From NCBI GenBank assembly GCA_017410245.1, contig JAFQRE010000017.1, positions 131,296-195,295 on the forward strand: a DNA stretch of 64,000 bases, read 5' to 3'. Below are positions 39,625 through 55,369 of the stretch, piece after piece. A program made the translations under genes and the position numbers. The notes under the pieces are model-generated. The model was not told the DNA's origin and made no database searches. It was given only the letters and a program-made list of their open reading frames with translations. How positions within the stretch are numbered: position 1 is the stretch's first letter; every line of letters begins with the position of its first letter. The DNA is from Bacteroidaceae bacterium (GTDB lineage Bacteria; Bacteroidota; Bacteroidia; Bacteroidales; Barnesiellaceae_A).

Positions 39625-39636
39625 GCAAACGTTTGC
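39625..39636. promoter_or_regulatory. LacI-type operator, distal copy
   Basis: GCAAACGTTTGC, a perfect 12-bp palindrome with central CG as bound by LacI-family regulators. An identical palindrome stands between susC and the LacI gene at 50890-50901; the match extends to TTGCAAACGTTTGCGTT (17 bp). It lies 55 nt upstream of the -7 box at 39692. Confidence 0.7.
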
Positions 39637-39691
39637 GTTTTTCATTTGCAGAAAAAATTATTTTGTTGTTGCCCAATTTGTTGTATGCTCG

Positions 39692-39699
39692 TACCTTTG
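39692..39699 (+). promoter_or_regulatory. -7 box of the ~340-nt RNA candidate
   Basis: TACCTTTG, perfect TAnnTTTG. A -33 box is poor (TTG about 20 nt upstream), as expected for an activated promoter. Transcription would start near 39706. Confidence 0.55.
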
Positions 39700-39705
39700 T
39701 GTCGT

Positions 39706-40045
39706 GAATGAGAAAGTAATCAATTTCACACTCCACATATTGCATGTGGACCTCATACAATAGGTTAAGGTAAAGATTGGTTTTATTATTACAGAGATTA
39801 AGGTTAAAAATAGGTTTTTAGGTAAGATTGTTTTAAAGGTAGATTTGATTGTTTGTAAGGTTTTCAATAAGATTAAGAAGATTGTTAGTGAATATGGTGC
39901 TGTCGTGAGATAGGGAAGCCATCAAGTCCCCGAAGGGGCAAACATGCAGGTTGCGAGTAATCGCAACCTTCCGAGAGAGCAGGAAACTGCCTCCTCAAGA
40001 ATACACAAAGGAGAATATCGCGAGATGTTCTCCTTTGTTGCTTTA
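39706..40045 (+). ncRNA. candidate ~340-nt structured RNA with a C-depleted segment
   Basis: Between lysS and the HTH gene lies a transcript-like unit: -7 box at 39692, hairpin TCCACAT/ATGTGGA (39732-39738 with 39744-39750), then 141 nt (39759-39899) holding only two C residues, then hairpins CCCC-GAA-GGGG (39928-39938), GGTTGCGA-GTAA-TCGCAACC (39949-39968) and GCAG-GAAA-CTGC (39979-39990), and a terminator (40005-40038). Two loops are GNRA tetraloops. The C-poor part is open in one frame (39764-39913) but has no ATG. I do not recognise RNase P, tmRNA, a cobalamin riboswitch or group II intron motifs. A LacI-type operator lies upstream. Confidence 0.55.
40005..40038. terminator. terminator of the RNA candidate, shared with the HTH gene
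   Basis: 11-bp stem (40005-40015 with 40028-40038), inner ATC-GCGA-GAT, followed by TGCTTTATG. Confidence 0.65.
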
Positions 40046-40642: not shown

Positions 40643-43390
40643 TTATTTTTTTACAAATTTCATGCTTTGATTGTTGTTACCATTGGCAATGTTGAGTATA
40701 TACATACCGGCGGGGAGGTCACTTACTTCTACGCAGTTGCCCTCGGCCTCGCGTACCATTGCTCCCGACAGATTGTACACTGTGAGCTTGCCTTGTGCGT
40801 TGGTGTAAACGTAGTTGGTGGCGGGGTTGGGATATACAGTATATTCAACCTTGTCGCTCATGGTGTTATCCACTCCTGTTACCTCAAAGTTGGTGTATAT
40901 AACGCAACTATTGGCGGGAACGGTGTGTGAGAAACTATTGGTGCTTACTTCCAATGTCTCGTCGGTGAGGAGGTTGGTCCATGTGCCGGTCTTGGGGAAC
41001 ATGATGGTGTAGTTGCCATCTTTCTCGGTGAGGTTGATAGCTGCCACAACGCTCTTGTTGCCATCGGCACTCACAAGAGTGACAAAGCGGCCATTGCTCC
41101 AATTGCTCTCGTTGAGTTGGTAGGTAAATGAAGCATCGTCGGCAAACAACTCTGAGTGGAAGTTGCGCAAGGTATTGAGTTGTGCATAGGCATAGCGCAG
41201 ACGATAGCGGTCTTCGTCCTCGAGATAGTTCCATACTACGGGCTTTTCGGCAGTGCGGTCGCCGTTGTAATTTATGCTATAGTCGTAGCCGAGTTCGCCA
41301 AACTGCCATATCATCTTAGGTCCGGGAATGGTGAGGAACTGAGCAACGTTGGCAATAGCTTGGTTCATGCGAGTTTTGTGGTCGGTCTTAACTTTCAAGT
41401 TGCCCCATTGAGTAGCCTTGTATGTGGTGCGCTCCTCATCGTGACTCTCCATGAAGCCTACGTAGGCATTCTTGGGCATACTGCTACCGTTGGCATATAT
41501 ACCGGCAACACCGCTACGCTCTTGGTGTCCCATAGCCGATTGACAGTAAGCATCGTTCATGTTGCGCCACACCATCATACCTTCTTGAGCCAATGCTTTC
41601 TCCTCATTCTCGGCACAGAAGTGCTCAAGAATTACACAAGCATCGGGGCGAACGGCCTTGATAGCATTGTTGTACTCCTTGAGAATGTTGATACGAGATT
41701 GGTCGTAGTTGCTTGCTGTGCTCTCGTTGCAATAGCGATTGGTAAAGCCTTTGGTCAAGTCGAAGCGGAAACCGTCAATCTTGTACTCTTCGAGAAGATA
41801 TACAAGGTTGCGTTTGATATACTCCTTCACCTCGGGAACTTCGTGGTTGAAGTCGTGGAATACACTATAGGGGTGGGGGGCATCTACGTTAAACCAAGGG
41901 TTGTTTGCGGCTGTTTTGTTGTTCTTCTCGTCCCACCACAACTTGCAGTAGGGGAAGTTTCCTGTAGCGTGGTTATATACCACATCAAGGAATACGGCTA
42001 TACCCAACTTGTGACACTCGTCGATAAACATGCGGTAGTCCTCATCGGTACCGTATGCCTTGTCGAGTGCAAAGAAGTAGGCGGGGTTGTAGCCCCAGCT
42101 GAGGTTGCCGTCAAACTCTTGTACGGGCATCAACTCAATGGCATTTACACCCAAACCTTGCAAGTAGGGCAGCTTGCCCATGGCATCTTTGAGCGATTTT
42201 TTCGATGTGAAGTCGCGGAGCAACAACTCATAGATGACAAGGTTGCTACGGTTTTCTACTTTAAAGTCGGTCACTTGCCATTGGTAGTCCGAGCCTGTGG
42301 TTTTGAATGCAGTTGCGGGCTGTTCCCAAGCCTTGGCGGGGAAATCGCGCAAGCCGGGATATATTGACTCGTCTATCCATTTGTCGTTCCAAGGGTCGAG
42401 TATCTTGGTAGAGTAGGGGTCGGCAAATCGTATGGCGTTGCCATTTTGGGGTACAACGTGGTACTGGAAGGCATACTCTTTGCCGGGCTCCAAGCCATCG
42501 ATGGTAATCCACCAGCACTTGTTGGCAAGGTCGCGTTTCATCATGTAGTCGTTGCTGATGTTCCAGTCGGTGTTATCACCTACCCAGAATACATATTTGC
42601 TGTAAGCACCATTCTTGTCACAGTCGAAGAGAACGAATGTAACAGTGTTCTCATCAATGATATTGATACCTTCTTTGGTTCCCTCGGGGCGTGATTCATT
42701 TACTACAGCACCGCAAACGGTGAGGGCAGCACTTGTATCGTGTTGCTCGGTAGCTGTAGCAGCTTGAGCATCGATTGTGTAGTCGCCCGTAGTGGCAAAA
42801 GTATAGTTCTGAGTCAATGTAGTAGCGTTGTCGGCTGTAAATGTATCGGTACCATTGGGGCCTGTGATAGTGAGGGTGATAGTGGCACTCTTGGTAGATT
42901 TTACAGTGATGGGCATTTGAGTTCCCTCCGATGCGATACCCGATGTGGGAAGTCCGCTTATCTCGGCATAGAGGGCGGCATCTTCGCAAGGTATCATGAT
43001 GTCGGGGCGTGTTTGCTTTGAGCCATCGGCGTTGCGCACTACTACACCAATAGTGTTAATCTCGATTGTAGCACCAAAATACTCACGTACAGTGGGGCTG
43101 AGAGTTATTGACCATGTTTTGTCGGCATCTTTGGTCATCTTATATTTGGGACTGTTGTCGCACCATTGTGCGGGACCGTTGTGCCATGTTTCGGTTGCAT
43201 CTACTACTCCTATGTGTACATACAATTCGTCTGTATCCGAAAAGATGTTATTGGTATCAATCCAAGTTATTTTACCCTCCTTGTCGGCATTAAGAGGGTT
43301 GGGTGTTGTCATATATGTTCCCGTTCCCTGTGCCCATGCCATCATTGCTGTGGCGATGGTTGCTATAAGAAGAAATAATCTCTTTTGCAT
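40643..43390 (-). CDS. secreted GH13 alpha-amylase with type IX secretion sorting domain
   Basis: A 915-residue enzyme for starch or maltodextrin hydrolysis outside the cell. Signal peptide MQKRLFLLIATIATAMMAWA; N-terminal beta domains including a probable starch-binding/early-set region (about 20-360); GH13 barrel with DVVYNHATG, GFRFDLTKGF (nucleophile Asp about 541), ILEHFC (acid/base Glu about 588) and MESHDEER (third Asp about 648). The C-terminal about 75 residues (YPNPATNYVYTNAQGKLTVYNL ... PAGMYILNI ... SMKFVKK) are a type A sorting domain for the type IX secretion system. It closes the operon behind susF; a hairpin separates them. In Bacteroides the equivalent SusG is instead a lipoprotein. 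Confidence 0.93.
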   Translation of the reverse strand: MQKRLFLLIATIATAMMAWAQGTGTYMTTPNPLNADKEGKITWIDTNNIFSDTDELYVHIGVVDATETWHNGPAQWCDNSPKYKMTKDADKTWSITLSPTVREYFGATIEINTIGVVVRNADGSKQTRPDIMIPCEDAALYAEISGLPTSGIASEGTQMPITVKSTKSATITLTITGPNGTDTFTADNATTLTQNYTFATTGDYTIDAQAATATEQHDTSAALTVCGAVVNESRPEGTKEGINIIDENTVTFVLFDCDKNGAYSKYVFWVGDNTDWNISNDYMMKRDLANKCWWITIDGLEPGKEYAFQYHVVPQNGNAIRFADPYSTKILDPWNDKWIDESIYPGLRDFPAKAWEQPATAFKTTGSDYQWQVTDFKVENRSNLVIYELLLRDFTSKKSLKDAMGKLPYLQGLGVNAIELMPVQEFDGNLSWGYNPAYFFALDKAYGTDEDYRMFIDECHKLGIAVFLDVVYNHATGNFPYCKLWWDEKNNKTAANNPWFNVDAPHPYSVFHDFNHEVPEVKEYIKRNLVYLLEEYKIDGFRFDLTKGFTNRYCNESTASNYDQSRINILKEYNNAIKAVRPDACVILEHFCAENEEKALAQEGMMVWRNMNDAYCQSAMGHQERSGVAGIYANGSSMPKNAYVGFMESHDEERTTYKATQWGNLKVKTDHKTRMNQAIANVAQFLTIPGPKMIWQFGELGYDYSINYNGDRTAEKPVVWNYLEDEDRYRLRYAYAQLNTLRNFHSELFADDASFTYQLNESNWSNGRFVTLVSADGNKSVVAAINLTEKDGNYTIMFPKTGTWTNLLTDETLEVSTNSFSHTVPANSCVIYTNFEVTGVDNTMSDKVEYTVYPNPATNYVYTNAQGKLTVYNLSGAMVREAEGNCVEVSDLPAGMYILNIANGNNNQSMKFVKK

Positions 43391-43422
43391 GTGATTGTTG
43401 TTATATGTCATTATTAAAATAA

Positions 43423-43459
43423 ACAAGGTGGCATACACCAATGGGTATGCCAGCCTTGT
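43423..43459 (-). terminator. attenuator-like hairpin between susF-like and amylase genes
   Basis: Stem ACAAGG-GGCATAC with GTATGCC-CCTTGT (43423-43459, one mismatch on each side), followed on the minus strand by TTATTTTAAT. May reduce amylase expression relative to the sus genes. Confidence 0.55.
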
Positions 43460-43479: not shown

Positions 43480-44940
43480 TTAGAGTTTTGTTACTGTGTA
43501 ATAGGGCTCTTGAGCGCAGAAGTAGAAACGTACCTCATAGTCGCCAGCTTCGGCAACAGAGATGTCAGCTCCATCGCGAGCAAGAGTACCATTACCGGCA
43601 CCTGCATCACCATAGTTGATAGGCCAATCTTCGTTGGCACGAATCTTGAACTTGGCATCAGCTTCCAATGTAACTGTAGCTACCAAGTAGTCGGCACCGG
43701 CCTCGGTAGAGAGGTTCATAGCTACGTCGGGAGCAGCCCAACCATTGAAGGTACCAACAAGACCCCAAGTGTTCACTGTGTTGAGAATGTTGAGTGTCAA
43801 GTTTGTTGCATCGAAAGCAACTTCGTAGCTGAATGCGCTGTATTGAGTGATGTTGCCTGCGCCACCGTCGGTAGAGAGGAGCATCGAGGGAGCCTCGGCT
43901 GCTGCTTCTTCACCGGCACCGTAGTTGATACCATTCCAGTCGGCTTGAGTAGAAATCTTCCAACCATTGGCACCTGCGCCGTTCAATACAATCCAACCTT
44001 GTGCGGGAGCACCGGCTACACTGTAAAGACGTTGGCCATCAACTTGGCTCCAACCGCTGAAGTCACCTACTACGAAGTACTCGATAACATCGGGAACTAC
44101 CTCTACAGTGTAAGTGTAAGACTCCATGTTGAGGGTAATCTTGTAGTTACCGGCACCGGGGAATTTCATGGCACCGGCAGCTGTAGCGTTGTCGGCGAGT
44201 GAGCCTTCGGTAGATGTGCTACCATCGGCCTCAGTGTTACCAAGAACTGTATCCCATGAACCGCTGTCGATAGCCGATTGAGGAGCTACCTTCCAGTATT
44301 TCTCACCATCAACTGTTACTGTGAGGGTGAAGATAGGATCTTCGTAAACATCTTTACCACTGTGGCTGAAGGGCATAGTAGCGGCAGCAGCGAAGTCCCA
44401 ACCGGGTACATCACCGATGAGGTAGTATGCACTCTCGATGGGAGTGGCAATGGGAGTAGCTGTAGCAGTAACTACATTTGAGTAGAGTTCGATGTTACGG
44501 CCTGAAGGGCTGCTGACAATACCTCTTACCGATGCATAGAAAGTATCGGGTTGAGGACGTTTGCCAAAGAGTGTTTGAATCTTGGCGTTGAGGTCGGCAG
44601 CTGCAATAGCAACGTTATCACCTGTAATAGTAGCAGGAATTGTTACTTTGCCTTGCATGTCGGCTGTAGCAGCCATGAAGAGTTCATACGCAACTGTTGA
44701 GCCGGCCTCCAACTCAGGAGTGGCGCTCAAGTCGATAGTAAATGCTGCAATTGAGTCGGCAGTATAAGAGTTGAGGTCGATAGGTTGAGCCAACTCATTG
44801 GCTGCGATTGTGATAACAGTCTCAGCGGGATCTACGGGGTCGTAGCTTACAGGAGGCAATGCGGGCTCTATCTCGGGAGTACATGCCGAGAATGCTACCA
44901 CTCCTGCCAACAATGTGCTGAAAATCGATATTTTTTTCAT
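43480..44940 (-). CDS. SusF-like starch-binding outer-membrane lipoprotein
   Basis: A 486-residue surface lipoprotein: MKKISIFSTLLAGVVAFSAC lipobox (Cys about 20), an N-terminal Ig-like SusE-type domain with PEIEPALPPVSYDPVDPAETV, then three CBM-like modules each opening with a strand-turn such as YYLIGDVPGWDFA, YFVVGDFSGWSQ and WGLVGTFNGWAAPD. Each carries aromatic residues as in SusE/SusF, which bind starch on the cell surface. Fourth gene of the operon; the C-terminal module ends with AQEPYYTVTKL. Same family as the gene before it, probably by duplication. Confidence 0.88.
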   Translation of the reverse strand: MKKISIFSTLLAGVVAFSACTPEIEPALPPVSYDPVDPAETVITIAANELAQPIDLNSYTADSIAAFTIDLSATPELEAGSTVAYELFMAATADMQGKVTIPATITGDNVAIAAADLNAKIQTLFGKRPQPDTFYASVRGIVSSPSGRNIELYSNVVTATATPIATPIESAYYLIGDVPGWDFAAAATMPFSHSGKDVYEDPIFTLTVTVDGEKYWKVAPQSAIDSGSWDTVLGNTEADGSTSTEGSLADNATAAGAMKFPGAGNYKITLNMESYTYTVEVVPDVIEYFVVGDFSGWSQVDGQRLYSVAGAPAQGWIVLNGAGANGWKISTQADWNGINYGAGEEAAAEAPSMLLSTDGGAGNITQYSAFSYEVAFDATNLTLNILNTVNTWGLVGTFNGWAAPDVAMNLSTEAGADYLVATVTLEADAKFKIRANEDWPINYGDAGAGNGTLARDGADISVAEAGDYEVRFYFCAQEPYYTVTKL

Positions 44941-45025: not shown

Positions 45026-46195
45026 TTATTTCGCAAAGAAATAGTAGTTACCGTCGATATCGTTGAATACAACTTCGTAAGTACCGGCTTTGATTTGAAT
45101 GTTGTTGCCCGACTTAACTGTTGAGTAGGGGAATGAATCACCACCCCAGTTGTTATCCCAAGCAGAATTGGCGCGGAACTTACCTTCGTAGTCGGCATCG
45201 AATGTCATGGTAGCATACCAGAGGTGTTTCATGTTCATAGGAGTCATCATGATGGGAGCCTCACCCCAGTTGTCGAATGAGCCAACGAACTCCATCGAGG
45301 TGTACTCGTTGGGAGTAATATCGGCAGCCTCAAACTTACCTTCGAATTTCTCTGAGTTGGCAGTGAGTGTGTAGTAACCGCTCTCGGCAACAGTGATGTT
45401 GCCCGAACCACCGTCGTTGAATACGAGGTTGGTACCGTCCGAACCTACTTGGATATCCCAGCTACCGGGAACGAGAACGAGCTTGTAGCCCAAGCCTGCC
45501 TCGAAGTAGCCTGTGAATGTGAAGTCACCGGCACCTGTTACAGTGTTGTAGCTGAAGCCATCTACCAAGCTCATAGGAACAAGACCGGCAGCGGCACCAT
45601 CGGCGCTGTTTGACCAGCTGTTGAAGTCACCAACAAGCCAGTAGGGTTGAGGAAGTGCATCTACCAACAACATGTAGTAGGGTTGAATGCTCAATTTGAT
45701 AACGTTAGAGTAGCAATCCTTGATAGTGGGAACAGATTCGGTCACAGAGGGAGTTGCGTCAGAGAGGTGTGCGCGCAAACGAACGTAGATGTCCATAACA
45801 CCGGGGTTCTCGTTTACGTTGTCACCTTGCAACAATGTGATGGCTTTGTTCATATCCTTGGTGTTGATAGGATATGTTTGACGAGAACCTACCGACTCGA
45901 GTTCTACGAAAGTAGCCTCTTCGAAAGTCTCACCAAAGCTCACTTGAGCATAGTATTGTGTAGCGGCAGTGAAACCATAGTCGGGTTGCTCGCGTACATA
46001 GATAGTCTCCATAGTCTCGGCACCTTTAGCTTCGCTCAAGACGTATGTGTAGCCGGCATAGGCGGGAGTATTGATCTCAAATGAGAGTGTGCCTTCTGTT
46101 GCAGCCGGATTGATGGTGGTCATGGGGTGCTCTTGGCAACCTACAAGAAGTGCCAACCCCATTACGCCGGAGATAATATAATTTAACTTTTTCAT
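45026..46195 (-). CDS. SusE-like starch-binding outer-membrane lipoprotein
   Basis: A 389-residue lipoprotein (lipobox ALLVGC, Cys about 20) with an N-terminal SusE-type Ig domain (GTLSFEINTPAYAGYTYVL, DIYVRLRAHLSD, YSNVIKLSIQPYYMLL) and two glycan-binding modules starting PYWLVGDFNSWSNSADG and MEFVGSFDNWGEAPIMM. It should hold starch chains near the SusCD channel. Third gene of the operon, 25 nt behind susD. Confidence 0.88.
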   Translation of the reverse strand: MKKLNYIISGVMGLALLVGCQEHPMTTINPAATEGTLSFEINTPAYAGYTYVLSEAKGAETMETIYVREQPDYGFTAATQYYAQVSFGETFEEATFVELESVGSRQTYPINTKDMNKAITLLQGDNVNENPGVMDIYVRLRAHLSDATPSVTESVPTIKDCYSNVIKLSIQPYYMLLVDALPQPYWLVGDFNSWSNSADGAAAGLVPMSLVDGFSYNTVTGAGDFTFTGYFEAGLGYKLVLVPGSWDIQVGSDGTNLVFNDGGSGNITVAESGYYTLTANSEKFEGKFEAADITPNEYTSMEFVGSFDNWGEAPIMMTPMNMKHLWYATMTFDADYEGKFRANSAWDNNWGGDSFPYSTVKSGNNIQIKAGTYEVVFNDIDGNYYFFAK

Positions 46196-46220: not shown

Positions 46221-47756
46221 TTAATAACCGTCGTTTTGTTCCAAATTGGGGTTAGCGTTCAAATCCGAAACGGGGAGGGGGAGAATGTTGTACTTGGCAT
46301 CGAATGAAGTACCGTTGGCAACACCTGCTTTCCAGTCCCAGTTGTAGTTTGTATTACCACCGAAGCTGTTGAAACGAACGAGATCGATACGACGACGACC
46401 CTCGAAGTAGAACTCACGGCACCACTCGTCGCGGAGAACATCGAGTGTGAGGTTGCTTACCTCTTGAGCGTTGGCACGTTGGCGCAATGCGTTGAATTTC
46501 TCGATAGCAGCTGCTGACTCGCCCAAGCGGAATTTAGCCTCGGCATAAGTCAAGTAAGCCTCTGCAGCGCGAAGGAAAGGAATGTCGGTCTCGGGAACCT
46601 TCACCTCTACGTCGTTGCTGGCAACGGGAAGACCTGTCTCTGAATCGAGGTTGTTCCATTTGGTTACACCCCAACCGCTTGTGAAAGCATTGGGATCGCT
46701 GATGGTGGGATCGTTAGATGTTTGGTAGAACAAAGCACGGTCATCGGCACCATTTTGGAATTTCTCAACGAGCGATTTACGAGCGCGGATACCACCCCAA
46801 CCATCGATTGTACCCCACTCGGGCATGCCTGCAGTGTGAGTAGAAGCAACAAGGAAGTAAGAACCAGAGTAAGTCTTGGTGTAGTTACCGTGTTGTGCGA
46901 TGGGAAGAATGATTTCTTGCATAGCATCGGCATTGGTGTCGTTGTTACCCATGAAGAGGGCAGCATAGTTGTCGGCCAATTTGTAGTTTGAGTTGATTAC
47001 TTTCTCGGCATAAGTAGCAGCATCGGCCCAGCGAGCAGTACCGGTGTAAACCTCGGCGTTGAGGTAGATACGAGAGAGAAGCAACCAAGCAGCAGCGCGG
47101 TCAACACGATAGTACATGCCGGCACCGGGTTGGCTCATGTCGTTTTGCATTTCGAGCAACTCTTGCTCAAGGAAAGCAAAGATATCGGCGCGAGTGCTTT
47201 GTTTGGGCGACTCACTCTCAACCTTGGTTACCAAAGGAACGTTGGCGTACATATCCATGAGGTAGTAGTAGTTGAGGGCGCGGATAAAGCGAGCCTCGGC
47301 ACGTTGCAATTTAGTCTCTTCGTTATCGATGTCGGCAGTCATCTCCAAGAAGTGGTTGCAGAGAGTAACACCGAAGTAGAGACGATAGTAAAGACCTTGT
47401 ACGAATACGTCGGTATCGGTCCAGCCTGTATAGTTGGCTTCGGTAACACCTTGGTCGCTAAACCAGCAGCAGAGAGCCTCATCACCGGCCAAGTTGTTGA
47501 GATACCACAATGTTCGGTAGAAACCCGATTGACCTTCGTCGATACCCATGGCATCGAGGTCACCACCACCGGCAGTACCGGTCATACCGGTCATACCCAT
47601 AGAGGCATAGATTTTGGTGAAAACGGCTTGTTGGTCGAACTCTTGCGACACTTGGGGGTTGATAGGTGTCACATTCAAGTCGTCCACGCAAGAGGTAAGT
47701 GAGAGAGCCAATGCCATCGCACTACCTACAATTATATTTTTGATATTAAGTTTCAT
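46221..47756 (-). CDS. SusD/RagB-family glycan-binding lipoprotein
   Basis: A 511-residue surface lipoprotein with signal MKLNIKNIIVGSAMALALSLTSC (Cys about 23). SusD hallmarks: QAVFTKIYASMGM near the N-terminus, helical TPR region (RAEARFIRALNYYYLMDMYANVPLV, RADIFAFLEQELLEMQNDM, AAAWLLLSRIYLNAEVYTG), and the C-terminal core (IPFLRAAEAYLTYAEAKFRLGES, LRDEWCREFYFEGRRRIDLVRF). It forms the lid of the SusC channel and binds the sugar; substrate starch/maltodextrin is inferred from the locus. Starts 26 nt after susC. Confidence 0.95.
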   Translation of the reverse strand: MKLNIKNIIVGSAMALALSLTSCVDDLNVTPINPQVSQEFDQQAVFTKIYASMGMTGMTGTAGGGDLDAMGIDEGQSGFYRTLWYLNNLAGDEALCCWFSDQGVTEANYTGWTDTDVFVQGLYYRLYFGVTLCNHFLEMTADIDNEETKLQRAEARFIRALNYYYLMDMYANVPLVTKVESESPKQSTRADIFAFLEQELLEMQNDMSQPGAGMYYRVDRAAAWLLLSRIYLNAEVYTGTARWADAATYAEKVINSNYKLADNYAALFMGNNDTNADAMQEIILPIAQHGNYTKTYSGSYFLVASTHTAGMPEWGTIDGWGGIRARKSLVEKFQNGADDRALFYQTSNDPTISDPNAFTSGWGVTKWNNLDSETGLPVASNDVEVKVPETDIPFLRAAEAYLTYAEAKFRLGESAAAIEKFNALRQRANAQEVSNLTLDVLRDEWCREFYFEGRRRIDLVRFNSFGGNTNYNWDWKAGVANGTSFDAKYNILPLPVSDLNANPNLEQNDGY

Positions 47757-47782: not shown

Positions 47783-50737
47783 TTAGAAATCGAGAGTCAA
47801 ACCGATCAACGATACGAGAGGACGGGGATACATGTTGTTGTCGATACCACCATTTACCTCGGGGTCGATACCATTGTAGCCGGTAATCACGAAGGGATTT
47901 TGTACTGTTGCATATACACGACCGCTGAATACGCTACCCTTGAATGAGTAACCAAGAGTGATGTTGTCGCAGCGGAGGAATGATGCGTTTTGTACATAGT
48001 AGTCGCTTGCATAAGAGTCGTCAGTTCCGAAGAATTGAGTGTCAAGAGCCGACAAGGGACGGTTCGAGAAGAAACCGAGTGTCGAGTAGATGTCGAGGTT
48101 AGAGTTGCAAGCATCGTTGTTGTTATATACGTAGTTGCCGAGAGCAGCACGCAATGAGAAGCTGAAGTCCCAGTTCTTCCACATCAACTTAGATGTGAAG
48201 CCCATAGTAACGTCGGCTGCGGGGTTCTCATATACATATTTATCGGCACCTGTGATTTGACCATCGGCGTTGCGGTCAACGAAGCAACCTTGAATGGGTT
48301 TGCCTGTCTCGGGGTCATACACTTGCTCATATACATAGAATGAACCGGCGGGATAACCTACCTTGTGGATCTTGATGGGCGAACCTGTACCGGCCGAAGC
48401 ATAACCTGCCTCTACGTAGTAGTCGTCGCTTACACCATTAGAGAGTTTGGTAATCTCGTTTTGGTTGTATGTTACGTTGTAACCAACTTCCCAAGTCCAG
48501 TCTTTGGTTTGTACGGGAGTAGCCTCGATAGAGAACTCAACACCTTGGTTGCGGAGTGAACCTACGTTGCTCATCACAGCGGGACCGAAGTTAGTACCGG
48601 CCGATACGCTTGTCATGTTCAAGAGGTCTTTGGTGTCGCGCAAGTAATAGTCGATAGCACCACGGATACGGCCGTTCAAGAAACCGAAGTCAAGACCGGC
48701 GTTGTAGGTAGTAGTCTCCTCCCACTTGAGGTCGGGGTTGTATGCATCGGGACGAGCATAGGGATAGTAGATGTAGTTGCCATTCTCATCGATGCCGATG
48801 GGATAGAAGGCGTGGTCTTTACTTTGTGAGTAAACGGGGATATAGTCGTAGTAACCACCAATCTCTTGTTGACCGGTGATACCCCAACCCAAGCGGAGCT
48901 TGAGGTCGCTCAACCAATTAACGTCTTGCAAGAATGACTCTTCTTTGATCTTCCATGCGAGAGCAACTGAGGGGAAGAGACCCCAACGGTTGTCGCCAGA
49001 GAAGCGGCTGGTACCATCGTAACGTACTGTTGCAGTCAAGAGGTAACGGCTGAAGAGTTGATAGTTCAAACGACCGAAGAACGATACCAAGTAGTTCTCC
49101 ATTTTCCATAGATCGCCAGTGGGGTTGTCACCGTCCAAGTTGTTGTATGCGCTTTCGCCTTCGTTGTAGAAATGTTGCCACTCGTAACCGGCCATCACGT
49201 CAATGTTGTTTGCACCAAACTCCTTGGCATATTGCAAGTAGGCATTCAACATCTTGTTTGATTTGTACTTGGTTGTGTAACCGTTGCTACCTTTGTTCAA
49301 TGTGCTGGCAGCTTCGCGGGGCAAATAAGTGTTTTGAGTACCACCAGCAACGTCGATACCGATGTTGGCATGAACGCGCATGTCGGGGAAGAAGTGGAGC
49401 TTATAGTCGGCCTCGATGTTACCGATGAAGTCCCATGAAGTAGCCTCATCACGTTTTTGCTCGAGCAATGAAACGGGGTTGATAGGAGCTTGAGTGTTCC
49501 ATACGTTGCCGTTCATCCATTGCCAGTAGCCACCATTGGCAGCGATGTCGCTATTTACGGGTTGAGTGGGGTCGAAGGCAGCTGCACCACCAATGGCACC
49601 ACCGTCGGCATAACGGTTGTTTACCAACATACCCTTAGCGTTGATATTAAATTTCAAATAGTCTTCGAAGAATGTGGGAGCCAAGTTCACCGATGCAGTG
49701 AAACGCTCGAAGTTAGAAGTCTTAACGATACCGTTTTGGTTGGTGTAGCCAACAGAAACGCGGTAGGGCATCCAGCTGAGACCACCGGCGAGAGTCAAGT
49801 TTTGGTCGTGGCTGAGCGCATTGCGGTAGATAAGGCTTTGCCAGTCGGTGTTGGCAGTACCTAACAGGCCAAGAATGTCGCTGGCGTTCTCACGCTCGCC
49901 ATAGATGTCTTGAGCAAGAGCACGGAATTGGTCACCGGTCATCACCTCGCGCAAGCGAACGGGAGTACTTACCGATACGTTGCCGTTGTAAGAGAGACGG
50001 GGCTTAGAACCTTTGTCACCCTTCTTGGTAGTGATGATGATCACACCATTGGCAGCACGCGAACCGTAGATGGCAGTTGCCGAAGCGTCTTTGAGGACTG
50101 TGAAAGACTCGATGTCGTTGGGGTTGATTGTGCTTAAGGGGTTGGCAACACCTTGGATACCATTGTTGTCGAGGGCAAGACCGTCGATAACAACGAGGGG
50201 TGAGTTGCTAGCCGAGAGTGAAGAACCACCACGAATAGTGATAGTAGCACCAGCACCGGGAGTACCACCGTCCGAAACAACGTTTACACCGGCGATTTTA
50301 CCGGTAATCATGTCTTGAGCGTTGGTAACGAGACCCTTGTTCATGGCATCGGGCTCGATGGCTGTTACAGAACCGGTAGCATCGGCTTTCTTAACAACAC
50401 CATAACCAATCACCACAGCCTCTTCGAGAACGTGAGCATCTTCTTCAAGAGTGATCACGAGCGAAGGTGCAGCTGCAACTTCTTGGGGTTTGTAACCAAT
50501 GTAGCTAACCTTGATGGTAGCTCCTTGTTCGGCTTTCAATGAGAAGTTACCATCGATGTCGGTGGTAGTTCCCGTTGTCGTACCTACTAGCATAGCGTTT
50601 GCGCCAATGATAGGCTCGCCATACGCGTCTTTTACGTGTCCCGATACTACGATTTGCTGTGCAAATGCGGCGATAGAGAAGCAGAGCAGCATGGCTGCTG
50701 CGAGCACTCTGGGGACTTTTTTACTAACGTAATTCAT
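47783..50737 (-). CDS. SusC/RagA-family TonB-dependent transporter
   Basis: A 984-residue outer-membrane channel. Signal peptide (about 1-26, ending AFAQ), an N-terminal carboxypeptidase-D-like domain (VSGHVKDAYGEPIIGANAMLVG), TonB box region (LEEAVVIGYG), plug with DMITGKIAGVNVVSDGG, IRGGSSLSASNSPLVVIDG, FTVLKDASATAIYGSRAANGVIIITTKKG, and a 22-strand barrel ending YPRPLVSLIGLTLDF with terminal Phe. It imports maltooligosaccharides with the SusD lid, driven by TonB. First gene of the minus-strand operon; its promoter lies behind a LacI-type operator. Confidence 0.95.
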   Translation of the reverse strand: MNYVSKKVPRVLAAAMLLCFSIAAFAQQIVVSGHVKDAYGEPIIGANAMLVGTTTGTTTDIDGNFSLKAEQGATIKVSYIGYKPQEVAAAPSLVITLEEDAHVLEEAVVIGYGVVKKADATGSVTAIEPDAMNKGLVTNAQDMITGKIAGVNVVSDGGTPGAGATITIRGGSSLSASNSPLVVIDGLALDNNGIQGVANPLSTINPNDIESFTVLKDASATAIYGSRAANGVIIITTKKGDKGSKPRLSYNGNVSVSTPVRLREVMTGDQFRALAQDIYGERENASDILGLLGTANTDWQSLIYRNALSHDQNLTLAGGLSWMPYRVSVGYTNQNGIVKTSNFERFTASVNLAPTFFEDYLKFNINAKGMLVNNRYADGGAIGGAAAFDPTQPVNSDIAANGGYWQWMNGNVWNTQAPINPVSLLEQKRDEATSWDFIGNIEADYKLHFFPDMRVHANIGIDVAGGTQNTYLPREAASTLNKGSNGYTTKYKSNKMLNAYLQYAKEFGANNIDVMAGYEWQHFYNEGESAYNNLDGDNPTGDLWKMENYLVSFFGRLNYQLFSRYLLTATVRYDGTSRFSGDNRWGLFPSVALAWKIKEESFLQDVNWLSDLKLRLGWGITGQQEIGGYYDYIPVYSQSKDHAFYPIGIDENGNYIYYPYARPDAYNPDLKWEETTTYNAGLDFGFLNGRIRGAIDYYLRDTKDLLNMTSVSAGTNFGPAVMSNVGSLRNQGVEFSIEATPVQTKDWTWEVGYNVTYNQNEITKLSNGVSDDYYVEAGYASAGTGSPIKIHKVGYPAGSFYVYEQVYDPETGKPIQGCFVDRNADGQITGADKYVYENPAADVTMGFTSKLMWKNWDFSFSLRAALGNYVYNNNDACNSNLDIYSTLGFFSNRPLSALDTQFFGTDDSYASDYYVQNASFLRCDNITLGYSFKGSVFSGRVYATVQNPFVITGYNGIDPEVNGGIDNNMYPRPLVSLIGLTLDF

Positions 50738-50826
50738 GCAGATTAGATTAAAAAAGTTGTTAATATTTGGGTTTTTGTGTTAGTCATGATTATAAATGGC
50801 TACAATGAGCCATAATATTCCGATTG

Positions 50827-50834: not shown

Positions 50835-50889
50835 AATTTATTTAGCATCTTGTCTTATTTATTTAAGTGAAAAAAAATAATTTAACATT

Positions 50890-50901
50890 GCAAACGTTTG
50901 C
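50890..50901. promoter_or_regulatory. LacI-type operator between susC and the regulator gene
   Basis: GCAAACGTTTGC, perfect palindrome. Its right half contains the TTTG used as -33 box of the regulator gene (50897-50900), so binding should repress the regulator while the site is about -70 from the susC start. Confidence 0.8.
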
Positions 50902-50927
50902 GTTACTTTTTTTCTTTATTATTTTTG
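50897..50927 (+). promoter_or_regulatory. promoter of the LacI-family gene
   Basis: TTTG (50897-50900), 19-nt spacer, TATTTTTG (50920-50927), full consensus; the -33 element lies inside the operator. Confidence 0.7.
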
Positions 50928-50998: not shown

Positions 50999-52015
50999 AT
51001 GTCTTCACACATTACCATTAAAGATATTGCCAAGGCAATGGGCTGCGCCCCCTCTACGGTGTCGCGTGCGCTGAATAATAGTGCCAATATCAGTCCGGCT
51101 GTGCGCGAGGCTATACAACGTTATGCGCTCGAACACAATTATCGTCCCAATGAGTTTGCATTGAGTTTACGCAACAATCGCTCCAACACGATAGGTGTTA
51201 TATTGCCTCAGATAGTACACTACTTCTTTTCGAGTGTCTTGTCGGGTATTGAAAAGGCTGCTGCTGCTGCCGGATACAATATTATTGTGGCACAGAGCAA
51301 TGAGGAGTATGAGAAGGAGGTGGCTATCGTGGAGTCTTTTCGTAAAGCAAAGGTTTGCGGAGTGATAGCTTCGTTGGCCAAAGGTACGTATGACTTCACT
51401 CACTTCCGTCGTTTGGTCGATGAGGAGGTGCCATTGGTCTTTTACGACCGCATATGCACCGAACTCAATACGTCGCGCGTGGTGGTCGATGACTATACAG
51501 GAGCCTTTGCCGCAGTCGAGCACCTTATTGAGACAGGGTGTAGCAAGATTGCTTTTTATACTTCGCCCTTGCATCTGGAGATTTCGAAAAATCGTCGCAA
51601 TGGCTATGTTGATGCCCTGCGCAAGCATCGTATTGAGGTAGATAATGATATGATAATAGAGTGTGACAATCGTGCCCGTGCACGCGAGCTTACTATGAAA
51701 CTCATATCGAGCCCGGAACGCCCCGATGCCTTCTTTGCCGTCAATGCCGATACGGCAGCGGGCATCTTGTATGCTTGTAAAGATGCCGGATTGCGTGTGC
51801 CCGAAGATGTGTCGATATGCGGCTTCTCGGATAACGAGATGGCACGTTCTACCGAGCCTCGCTTGTCGATGGTAGATCAGCCGGGCGAAGCCGTTGGGCA
51901 AGGGGCTATGGAGTTGCTCTTGGCCAAGATTGATGGCAATGAGGAGAAACTTGTGTATAAAAATAAGATAGTAAAGACCTCGCTCATATTGCGCGGAACT
52001 ACTCGTGAAAAATAA
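50999..52015 (+). CDS. LacI-family regulator of the starch locus
   Basis: A 338-residue regulator. The N-terminal helix-turn-helix TIKDIAKAMGCAPSTVSRAL (6-25) is followed by the hinge region YRPNEFALSLRNN and a periplasmic-binding-protein-like effector domain (NTIGVILPQIVHYFFSSVLSGIEKAAAAAGYNI, LPLVFYDR-type VPLVFYDRICTEL, FAAVEHLIETGC, PDAFFAVNADTAAGILYACKDAGLRVPEDVSICGFSDNE). The effector is probably a maltooligosaccharide or derived sugar (inference). First of three plus-strand genes with the MFS permease and the GH13 enzyme; divergent from susC with the shared operator between. Confidence 0.94.
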   Translation: MSSHITIKDIAKAMGCAPSTVSRALNNSANISPAVREAIQRYALEHNYRPNEFALSLRNNRSNTIGVILPQIVHYFFSSVLSGIEKAAAAAGYNIIVAQSNEEYEKEVAIVESFRKAKVCGVIASLAKGTYDFTHFRRLVDEEVPLVFYDRICTELNTSRVVVDDYTGAFAAVEHLIETGCSKIAFYTSPLHLEISKNRRNGYVDALRKHRIEVDNDMIIECDNRARARELTMKLISSPERPDAFFAVNADTAAGILYACKDAGLRVPEDVSICGFSDNEMARSTEPRLSMVDQPGEAVGQGAMELLLAKIDGNEEKLVYKNKIVKTSLILRGTTREK

Positions 52016-52053: not shown

Positions 52054-53406
52054 ATGAAAACTAAACCCGACTTGTCTTTTATGAAACTCTTCAACTTGAG
52101 TTTCGGATTTTTCGGTGTACAGATTGCGTATGCCTTGCAGAGTGCCAATTGCAGCCGTATTTTTGCTACTCTTGGTGCCGACCCACACAGCCTTAGTTTC
52201 TTTTGGATTTTACCCCCGTTGATGGGTATTATCGTACAACCCCTTGTGGGAAAATGGAGCGATAATACTTGGACTCGCTTTGGCCGCCGCATTCCTTACC
52301 TCTTCTTGGGTGCGCTTGTAGCTGTATTGGTGATGTTTATGTTGCCCAATGCCGGTAGCTTTGGCCTCTCGGTGAGTGCCGCTATGCTCTTTGGTGTTGT
52401 GGCTTTGATGTTCCTCGATACTTCTATCAACATGGCCATGCAACCCTTCAAGATGATGGTGGGTGATATGGTGAATGAGAAGCAAAAGACTCTTGCCTAC
52501 TCGATACAGAGCTTCTTGTGCAATGCAGGTAGTTTGGTGGGTTATTTGTTCCCCTATATCTTCACTGCGTTGGGCGTTGCAAGTGTTGCTTCGGCCGGTG
52601 AGATACCCGACTCGGTGAAATGGTCGTTCTATATTGGTGCCATTATCCTCATACTTTGTGTTATCTATACTACAATGACTGTGAAGGAGATGCCTCCCAA
52701 AGAGTATGCCGAGTATCATGGTATAAAGGAGGAGGATAACAGCGAGAAGGTGAGTATGCTGAAACTGCTTGTCAAAGCTCCTAAAACTTTCTGGACCGTA
52801 GGCTTGGTACAGTTTTTCTGTTGGGCTGCCTTTATGTATATGTGGACCTATACCAATGGTGCTATCGCCGAGACTGCCTTCAATGCTCCCATCGTGAATG
52901 GTATGCTCGATACTGCATCTGAGCAGTATCAGGCTGCCGGTAACTGGGTGGGTGTGCTCTTTGCCGTACAAGCTGTAGGCTCGGTTTTGTGGGCTGTCGT
53001 GTTGCCTATGTTCCGTAGTCGCAAGTTGGCATACTCTTTGAGCCTTGTATTGGGTGCGGTAGGTTTTATTTCAACCTATTACATTCATGACCAATATATG
53101 CTATTTGTCTCTTATGCGCTCATTGGTTGTGCTTGGGCTGCTATGTTGGCTATGCCTTTTACAATCCTTACCAACTCATTGTCGGGCAAGCACATGGGCA
53201 CATACTTGGGCTTGTTCAATGGAACTATTTGTCTGCCCCAAATCATAGCAGCCGCTACCGGTGGTCTTGTATTGAGCTTGATGCCTCACACAGCCAGTGG
53301 CATTGCTCCGCAAGGCATGATGCTCGTATTGGCCGGTGTATTCTTGTTGTTGGGTGCTGTTTCGGTATTTATCATCAACGAGAAGAAGCAAGACGAGGAG
53401 GCTTGA
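52054..53406 (+). CDS. MFS sugar permease (SLC45/maltose type)
   Basis: A 450-residue inner-membrane protein with 12 segments. Features: QIAYALQSANCSRIFATLGADPHSL, the loop 2-3 motif GKWSDNTWTRFGRRIPY, VNEKQKTLAYSIQSFLCNAG and LTNSLSGKHMGTYLGLFNGTICLPQII. This fits bacterial maltose/sucrose proton symporters related to SLC45. It should bring maltose or short maltodextrins from the periplasm to the cytoplasm. It lies 38 nt behind the LacI gene and 34 nt before the GH13 gene, a natural operon. Confidence 0.9.
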   Translation: MKTKPDLSFMKLFNLSFGFFGVQIAYALQSANCSRIFATLGADPHSLSFFWILPPLMGIIVQPLVGKWSDNTWTRFGRRIPYLFLGALVAVLVMFMLPNAGSFGLSVSAAMLFGVVALMFLDTSINMAMQPFKMMVGDMVNEKQKTLAYSIQSFLCNAGSLVGYLFPYIFTALGVASVASAGEIPDSVKWSFYIGAIILILCVIYTTMTVKEMPPKEYAEYHGIKEEDNSEKVSMLKLLVKAPKTFWTVGLVQFFCWAAFMYMWTYTNGAIAETAFNAPIVNGMLDTASEQYQAAGNWVGVLFAVQAVGSVLWAVVLPMFRSRKLAYSLSLVLGAVGFISTYYIHDQYMLFVSYALIGCAWAAMLAMPFTILTNSLSGKHMGTYLGLFNGTICLPQIIAAATGGLVLSLMPHTASGIAPQGMMLVLAGVFLLLGAVSVFIINEKKQDEEA

Positions 53407-53440: not shown

Positions 53441-55369
53441 ATGAAAAAAATATTATTGGTAGCTTGTAGTGCTGTCATGGCAACTATGTTGCTGACAGGT
53501 TGCAACAATACATCGGCCGACAGTGCTGCTATGGCACTGCCCGATAGTGTGGTGGTGAATATTGACAAAGTAGATCCTCCCTGTTGGTATGTGGGTATGA
53601 AAAACCCCTCATTGCAGGTGATGCTATATGGTCAAGGTGTGGGCAACGCATCGACCGCAGTGACCGACTATGCCGGTGTGAAGGTAGATAGCGTGGTGCA
53701 TCTCGATAGCAAGAACTATCTGCTTGTGTATATGAATGTAGCCAAGGCTCAACCCGGTACAGTGAACCTGAACTTGGTCTTTGATAATTGCAAGCAACCG
53801 GTTGCCTATGAGTTGCGTGCCCGCGATATGGCCCCCGAAGCTCGTATGGGATTTGATGCCGGTGATGTACTCTATATGCTCATGCCCGATCGCTTTGCCA
53901 ATGGCGATCCTACAAATGACAATATAGAGGGTATGAAACCTTATAAAGTAGATCGTGAGCAACCCAGTGCTCGTCATGGTGGCGATATCAAGGGTATTGA
54001 AGACCATCTCGACTATTTCAACGAGTTGGGCGTAACTGCATTGTGGTTTACTCCTCTGCTTGAGAATGATATGAGCGACTTCCACTTTGGTGATCGCCGT
54101 CAGAGTTGCTATCATGGCTATGCCACAACCGACTATTATGCTGTCGATCCTCGTTTTGGCTCGAATGATGACTATCGTCGTCTTATAGACAAAGCCCACG
54201 AGAAAGGCTTGAAGATTGTCATGGACATGATTTTCAATCACTGTGGTAGCGACCATGTGTGGCTGACCGATATGCCATCGAAAGATTGGTTTAACAACCC
54301 CGACTATGAAAATAACTTTGTGCAGACTTCATACAAACTCACACCTCATGTAGATCCTTATGCTTCGCAATACGATTTCAGCGAGATGAATGATGGTTGG
54401 TTTGTATTGACCATGCCCGACCTCAACCAACGCAATCCCCACGTAACTCGCTACTTGATACAGAATAGTTTCTGGTGGATTGAGACTGTAGGTATCGATG
54501 GTATTCGTATGGATACTCACCCTTATGCCTACTACGATGCTATGTCGCAATGGCTCAAAGAGTTGAATGAGGAGTATCCCAACTTCAATGTTGTAGGTGA
54601 AACATGGTGCGAAAATCCTGCTTTCACAGCTTGGTGGCAGAAAGACTCTAAATTGTCGGCTCCTCTTAACAGTAATCTTAAGAGTGTCATGGACTTCCAC
54701 TTGTGGCAAGTTGTCAATAATAGTCTTACCGAAGAGACCGATAGCTATATGATGGGGCTTAACAAGGTATATCACCACTTTGTATATGACTATCTCTATC
54801 CCGATCCTTCATCGGTTATGGCATTTGTTGAAAATCATGATACCGACCGTTTCTTGCGCAATGGCGAGAATATCGATGCCCTCAAGCAAGCTATGGTGTT
54901 GTTGCTCACTACTCGTCGCATACCTCAGCTCTATTATGGTACCGAGGTGATGATGAATGGTACAAAAGAGGTGACCGATGGTTATGTGCGTAAAGACTTC
55001 CCCGGTGGCTGGGAGGGTGACAAACGCAACCTCTTCAATGCCGAGGAGCGCAATGCCAAAGAGGCTGAGATGTTCAATTTCTTGAGCAATATTCTCCATT
55101 GGCGCAAGGGTAATGACGTGATAGCCAAGGGCGACTTGAAGCACTTCATTCCCCAACAAGGTGTGTATGCCTATGCACGTAGCTATGAGGGTAAGACTGT
55201 GTTTGTGTTGCTCAATGGTTGCGACAAGGCTGTAGATCTTCGTGTTAAACCCTATGCCGAGGTTTTGGGCGATGCCAAGCAAGGTCGCGATGTGATATCG
55301 GGTAATGTAGTAGAGTGGGATACCACAATAGCATTGCCTGCTCGTGGCAATATGATTATTGAGTTGTAA
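53441..55369 (+). CDS. SusA-like neopullulanase/cyclomaltodextrinase lipoprotein (GH13)
   Basis: A 642-residue enzyme with lipobox MATMLLTGC (Cys about 21), an N-terminal beta domain (CWYVGMKNPSLQVMLYG, the neopullulanase early-set domain) and a GH13 barrel: LYMLMPDRFANGDPTND, GVTALWFTPLLEND, VMDMIFNHCG, GIDGIRMDTH (nucleophile Asp about 356), VVGETW (Glu about 385), VENHDTDRF (Asp about 465). Such enzymes cut imported maltodextrins in the periplasm. The C-terminal beta domain ends ALPARGNMIIEL. Last gene of the LacI-MFS-GH13 operon; followed by a bidirectional terminator. Confidence 0.93.
   Translation: MKKILLVACSAVMATMLLTGCNNTSADSAAMALPDSVVVNIDKVDPPCWYVGMKNPSLQVMLYGQGVGNASTAVTDYAGVKVDSVVHLDSKNYLLVYMNVAKAQPGTVNLNLVFDNCKQPVAYELRARDMAPEARMGFDAGDVLYMLMPDRFANGDPTNDNIEGMKPYKVDREQPSARHGGDIKGIEDHLDYFNELGVTALWFTPLLENDMSDFHFGDRRQSCYHGYATTDYYAVDPRFGSNDDYRRLIDKAHEKGLKIVMDMIFNHCGSDHVWLTDMPSKDWFNNPDYENNFVQTSYKLTPHVDPYASQYDFSEMNDGWFVLTMPDLNQRNPHVTRYLIQNSFWWIETVGIDGIRMDTHPYAYYDAMSQWLKELNEEYPNFNVVGETWCENPAFTAWWQKDSKLSAPLNSNLKSVMDFHLWQVVNNSLTEETDSYMMGLNKVYHHFVYDYLYPDPSSVMAFVENHDTDRFLRNGENIDALKQAMVLLLTTRRIPQLYYGTEVMMNGTKEVTDGYVRKDFPGGWEGDKRNLFNAEERNAKEAEMFNFLSNILHWRKGNDVIAKGDLKHFIPQQGVYAYARSYEGKTVFVLLNGCDKAVDLRVKPYAEVLGDAKQGRDVISGNVVEWDTTIALPARGNMIIEL

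Follow-up and report, generated by a model that had tools for sequence, protein, structure and literature searches.

Our comparison of nine congeneric genomes indicates that a short palindrome, GCAAACGTTTGC, and its variants lie at a nearly constant distance of 54 to 56 nt upstream of the -7 box of promoters serving a susC-like gene, a noncoding RNA and rRNA operons. Taken as a whole, this arrangement is probably best explained by a LacI-family regulator that uses the palindrome as its operator and, from this fixed spacing, activates susC, the RNA and the P1 promoter of the rRNA (rrn) operons.

The window, i.e., the whole stretch of 64,000 nt that was analyzed, contains exact copies of GCAAACGTTTGC at positions 39625 to 39636 (plus strand) and 50890 to 50901 (minus strand) and nowhere else. 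A first-pass annotation had reported two occurrences in these 64 kb, and we can add that the 2.53-Mb genome (2,527,947 bases searched) has no further exact copy. The two copies are 11 kb apart, a distance that is similar in the other genomes having both on one contig. The annotated separation of 55 nt from a TAnnTTTG box is likewise exact to the base on both sides: on the plus strand, positions 39637 to 39691 lie between GCAAACGTTTGC and the -7 box TACCTTTG of the RNA promoter (39692 to 39699), and on the minus strand, positions 50889 to 50835 lie between the palindrome and the -7 box TATATTTG (50834 to 50827), 5' of susC. The pattern GCAAACGTTTGCN{45,65}TANNTTTG recovers both sites, and it was found in none of 100 dinucleotide shuffles.

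The primary sigma promoter of Bacteroidetes combines a TTTG element (-33, located 19 to 21 nt upstream) with a TAnnTTTG element (-7), and the boxes at the RNA and at susC both conform to the latter. With respect to the -33 element, which had been described as missing at both sites, the two promoters differ. No TTG is present 19 to 21 nt 5' of the TA in the susC promoters of any of the nine genomes, as annotated; the RNA promoter, on the other hand, carries a -33-like box, GTTG (39668 to 39671), exactly 20 nt 5' of the TA of its -7 box, and NTTG occurs at precisely this position in nine of nine genomes. Since it has this -33-like box of its own, the RNA promoter may depend on the bound protein less than the susC promoter does.

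The susC-side palindrome separates two divergent operons. On the minus strand, the gene for the susC-like TonB-dependent transporter (47783 to 50737) is followed by susD-like (46221 to 47756), susE-like (45026 to 46195) and susF-like (43480 to 44940) genes and by a gene for an alpha-amylase with a C-terminal sorting domain (40643 to 43441). On the plus strand lie the genes for the LacI-family regulator (50999 to 52015), an MFS sugar transporter (52054 to 53406) and a cyclomaltodextrinase/neopullulanase-like enzyme (53441 to 55369). The predicted operator would be common to the susC promoter and the divergent lacI promoter, for which the likely -7 box, TATTTTTG (50920 to 50927, plus strand), begins 18 nt 3' of it. 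A strict TAnnTTTG box is present 18 to 19 nt after the operator on the lacI side in six of the nine genomes, and this one shared operator makes autoregulation of lacI likely. The other palindrome stands in front of the RNA gene, which is located in a region divergent from a class II tRNA synthetase gene.

Across the genus, the distance is conserved far better than the sequence that fills it, as the spacers are largely free while their length is kept. The RNA operator is retained in all nine genomes, in the forms GCAAACGTTTGC, GCAAACGGTTGC, GCAAACGATTGC, GCAATCGGTTGC and GCACACGTTTGC, and lies 55 nt from the -7 box in eight genomes and 56 nt in one. The susC operator is present in the lacI-susC intergenic region of all nine as well, at 55 nt in five genomes and at 56 nt in four. 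For a genome-wide search, as the first-pass annotation had proposed, we compiled all 59 distinct places at which the nine genomes match TGCAANCGNTTGC. A TAnnTTTG box follows at 54 nt (6 sites), 55 nt (20 sites) or 56 nt (6 sites) in 32 of these 59; the 32 comprise 8 RNA sites, 9 susC sites, 5 rrn sites and 10 others, and two more sites with the same geometry, that of the RNA in G008 and one in G001:C1, lie beyond the census list. Boxes occur at a density of about 10.7 per spacing at 54 to 56 nt and of about 0.13 per spacing elsewhere between 15 and 109 nt, where only 12 were counted in total, six of them at 18 to 19 nt, the position of the lacI promoter. The concern that the palindrome might be common and unrelated to promoters was not borne out, as 26 of the 27 box-less sites lie inside open frames of 168 to 682 codons and the remaining one (G004:C40) is cut by a contig end.

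The palindrome is CG centered, which we take to be typical of LacI operators, and the target sequence predicted for the 50999-52015 protein can be written as TGCAAACGTTTGC. This protein combines a LacI helix-turn-helix domain (PF00356, 1.6e-12) with a periplasmic-binding-protein-like sensor (PF13377, 1e-32; PF00532, 1.2e-25). It is the product of the only PF00356 gene in its genome; all nine genomes have exactly one such gene, adjoining susC, and because there is a single LacI gene per genome, the family offers no other candidate regulator. Its close relatives in our search come from metagenome-assembled genomes (MAGs) of herbivore rectum samples.

Of 119 genomes sampled across the order, 42 have an ortholog, and two of the 42 belong to this genus. 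In other families of the order, too, similar operators adjoin a SusC-like gene, some of them at 54 to 55 nt. An upstream operator-like site with at most two mismatches was found at 19 of the 28 order-level lacI loci (L099 to L126, of which L121 could not be placed). A strict box at 54 to 55 nt occurs at 4 of the 28 lacI loci outside the genus, although for two of the four the distance starts at an additional, weaker site that lies 12 bp 3' of the first one; when one box mismatch is allowed, a distance of 55 nt is seen more often than any other (5 of 14). At L104, L111, L114, L116, L118, L120, L122 and L123, all from other families, the lacI-susC region contains paired operator-like sites exactly 12 bp apart, which look as if two dimers were bound in tandem.

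These observations lead us to the following model. The palindrome would be the operator of the genus's single LacI-family protein (50999 to 52015), with the dimer centered some 74 bp 5' of the transcription start and its spacing fixed within one base pair, and the bound dimer would contact RNA polymerase and thereby activate the promoter. An operator near -74 that is held to one base pair, together with a -33 box that is often missing, is the anatomy expected of an activator, and it is from this position that we deduce the sign of control. The comparison thus supports the original proposal that the LacI-family protein activates susC and the RNA from about -70, with both binding and activation being read from the arrangement of sites. 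The RNA, encoded at the distal end of the sus cluster, would be a core member of the regulon in all nine species. Its annotated place in a starch regulon is supported as far as membership is concerned; the regulon appears to extend beyond starch, since rRNA operons have this site, at this spacing, in front of them as well. Because the predicted targets include susC, starch-binding proteins and a GH97 gene, the regulator is probably a sensor of starch or malto-oligosaccharides, which are the likely signal, and the rrn sites allow for a wider growth signal.

Five rRNA-operon leaders lie behind the operator in four genomes, two in the window's genome (L174 from G000:C27 and L175 from G000:C30, in each case at positions 1501 to 1574 of the locus) and one each in G002, G005 and G007 (L192, L193 and L188). 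All five have the same P1 layout of operator, 54 or 55 nt and TACCTTTG. The L192 leader continues into 16S rRNA (RF00177, E 8.2e-48), and the other four, which contig ends interrupt, were assigned from common leader words. A second rrn promoter, TATCTTTG, follows 155 to 159 nt 3' of the operator. From the operator onward, the two unlinked copies in the window's genome agree at 74 of 75 positions, as against 56 of 120 upstream of it, so that the homogenized rrn unit begins near the operator. These leaders were detected through the operator pattern, a procedure that could miss rrn copies without an operator. No further leaders were found at the contig ends of G001 and G008, at ten contig starts of G003 or at 42 of the 46 contig starts of G000. 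The genomes are mostly MAGs, and five of the nine gave no leader; of these five, the contig ends of G001 and G008 and part of G003 were covered. In G023, the rrn leader is truncated by the contig before the place where the operator would be. A LacI-type site before P1 would make direct control of rRNA synthesis by a sugar possible, and because rrn P1 carries the same operator and spacing, ribosome synthesis is probably linked to the supply of glucan through the regulator.

Several other explanations have to be weighed against this model. Coincidence could be entertained as long as there were only two sites in one window, a small sample; with the geometry present for the RNA and for susC in nine of nine genomes each and at 32 of 59 census sites, it is refuted by the census, and we assign it practically no probability. 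It also seems very unlikely that a different, non-LacI protein binds the operator, given that the palindrome recurs in the lacI-susC region of nine genomes and at many lacI loci of other families and that each genome has one LacI gene. The regulator might instead be a classical repressor released by malto-oligosaccharide, with susC and the RNA being derepressed and the -70 site acting through looping or polymerase trapping. Most characterized sugar-responsive LacI regulators are repressors, and protein bound to the operator 18 to 19 nt before the lacI -7 box would cover the -33 region there. A repressor at about -70, however, would have no need for the 54 to 56 nt that are held in all 32 promoter sites, and the susC promoters, lacking a -33 box in nine of nine genomes, fit the need for an activator; repression is therefore improbable at these promoters.

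A stronger competitor, if still an unlikely one, has the protein sensing a central metabolite and regulating growth or catabolism in general; the RNA would then share a growth regulon with the rRNA genes and not be part of a response to starch. The site and spacing at the rrn P1 promoters agree with this, as does the -7 box, which is TACCTTTG in eight of nine RNA promoters and five of five rrn P1 promoters, unlike at susC, where it is TATATTTG or TATTTTTG. Such a role is harder to reconcile with the position of the regulator gene in the sus cluster, beside the MFS and cyclomaltodextrinase genes, or with the other annotated targets, most of which bind or degrade starch. We tentatively put forward, at close to even chances, the specific form of our model in which a LacI-family starch sensor directly drives rrn P1, susC, starch-binding proteins and the C-poor RNA from an operator at 54 to 56 nt.

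Judged from its sequence, the RNA of about 335 nt (39705 to 40041, plus strand, with ends that we infer from the promoter and the terminator) is real, restricted to the genus and not previously described. It was found in all nine genomes, in eight by DNA search and in the ninth by the core pattern and the covariance model R1, and it is single copy apart from a weak second match in G001 (E 0.06). It has no match among the Rfam 15 covariance models. Outside the genus, the core pattern gave five matches in 393 genomes of the order, all apparently unrelated, and R1 gave one weak match (E 0.07) in 129 genomes. The predicted fold (39700 to 40041) has a z score of -4.5. The nine-sequence alignment supports six helices with 95.3% of cells paired, including a 5' hairpin (helix 1, 39704 to 39729) and a second hairpin (helices 2 and 3, 39732 to 39750). 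Both sides have changed in 19 of 36 pairs, a number reached by none of 500 shuffles and not approached by slid versions (maximum of 8); as the structure was derived from the same alignment, which favors it, more weight attaches to the shuffles and to the 15-pair terminator helix. That terminator-like 3' hairpin (40005 to 40038) has compensatory changes in 9 of its 15 pairs. A coding reading of the region was rejected, as the alignments contain no conserved open reading frame, with gaps and absent starts.

Between the hairpins lies a C-depleted, mostly unpaired core (39759 to 39898), whose 140 nt include 2 C and 33 G; no other 140-nt stretch of the window, on either strand, has fewer than 9 C. 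Counted across the genus, the 140-nt core has 3 to 5 C in all nine RNAs, and it contains TTAAGGTAAAGATTGGTTTTAT, which is invariant in nine of nine genomes. Avoidance of structure, pairing with G-poor leaders and protein binding are candidate reasons for this depletion. With its own promoter, terminator and conserved structure and no conserved open reading frame, the gene has the form of a trans-acting small RNA, and the RNA is most likely a riboregulator that uses the C-poor unpaired core. This role is deduced from form because the core is not predicted to pair with the G-poor susC leader any better than shuffled cores: duplexes with the susC start region did not exceed shuffled controls in any of the nine genomes, and susC ranked 12th of 48 window genes. 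Outside the RNA gene, sites antisense to two conserved core blocks were scattered, with one or two mismatches, and none was kept at a start codon across genomes. The susC leader itself (50738 to 50790, minus strand; AACCCAAATATTAACAAC...TTTTTAATCTAATC), just 5' of the ATG, is G free and nearly identical in nine genomes, and it is possibly a translational or riboregulatory target.

To our knowledge, the control of rRNA synthesis and of starch use outside Bacteroides has been little explored in Bacteroidales. Small RNAs under a LacI-family carbon regulator are known from Firmicutes, where CcpA controls RsaI among others; there, CcpA represses, the phylum is another one and the RNA is unrelated. 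The regulator described here resembles MalR, MdxR, MalI, CcpA and Cra/FruR in its LacI fold and in its connection with maltose/maltodextrin pathways or global carbon control. According to passages of a survey of LacI regulons, Cra and, by prediction, PckR act as activators at some genes, and the maltose regulators named there include none in Bacteroidetes (PMC4052901). Those survey passages contain no LacI-family starch activator in Bacteroidetes (PMC4052901), and strict spacing and rRNA operon targets are absent from the texts consulted. At the level of literature search results, too, neither such an activator nor rRNA operons controlled by a LacI-family protein were described for this phylum. 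SusR, described in part of PMC3878776 as the membrane-bound, non-LacI activator of the sus operon of Bacteroides thetaiotaomicron, offers a parallel in the starch-induced activation of susC-type genes; here, by contrast, a soluble LacI-family protein would act from a CG palindrome whose position is fixed at -70. The LacI regulators given for B. thetaiotaomicron in the same passages act on uronates (PMC3878776). Among the Bacteroides small RNAs with roles in glycan control, the passages available on GibS and FopS report that FopS represses SusC translation (PMC7366714, PMC11697453). Like these members of the RbpB network, the present RNA is noncoding, linked to glycans and endowed with long unpaired conserved regions. 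As described there, GibS has promoter motif 2, and FopS belongs to a 14-member family with canonical promoters and a shared R1 seed; the present RNA, in contrast, is single copy, about 335 nt long, restricted to its genus and preceded by a LacI operator.

If the model is correct, the complete regulon can be predicted from one protein and one movable operator rule, the 54 to 56 nt, and a dietary-glucan signal governs both ribosome production and a new RNA family. A single sugar sensor would then set uptake, ribosome synthesis and a posttranscriptional arm together, a nutrient-specific route of growth control that is undescribed for the LacI family in the parts of the literature surveyed. For gut bacteria of plant-eating mammals, this suggests a link between food supply and the growth machinery through one sugar-sensing protein. 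A few promoter fusions would suffice to test so simple a spacing rule.

The remaining sites fit this picture to various degrees. CBM26 proteins lie behind a spaced operator in G004, G005 and G002, and the targets in G008 are a protein with a glycogen/starch-recognition domain and a GH97 protein; one target protein in G001 and one in G003, the latter 333 nt downstream, have no Pfam match. In G001 (L178, G001:C9) and G004 (L183, G004:C5), a short stretch that includes a terminator-like hairpin lies between the operator, 55 nt and TAnnTTTG box on one side and rpe on the other; it may represent a second small RNA in this regulon. On the minus strand of L011 (G008:C1), at about 1280 to 1575, the operator, 54 nt and TATTTTTG precede about 220 nt that contain only a short open reading frame and end in a strong terminator-like hairpin, which makes this stretch another candidate small transcript.
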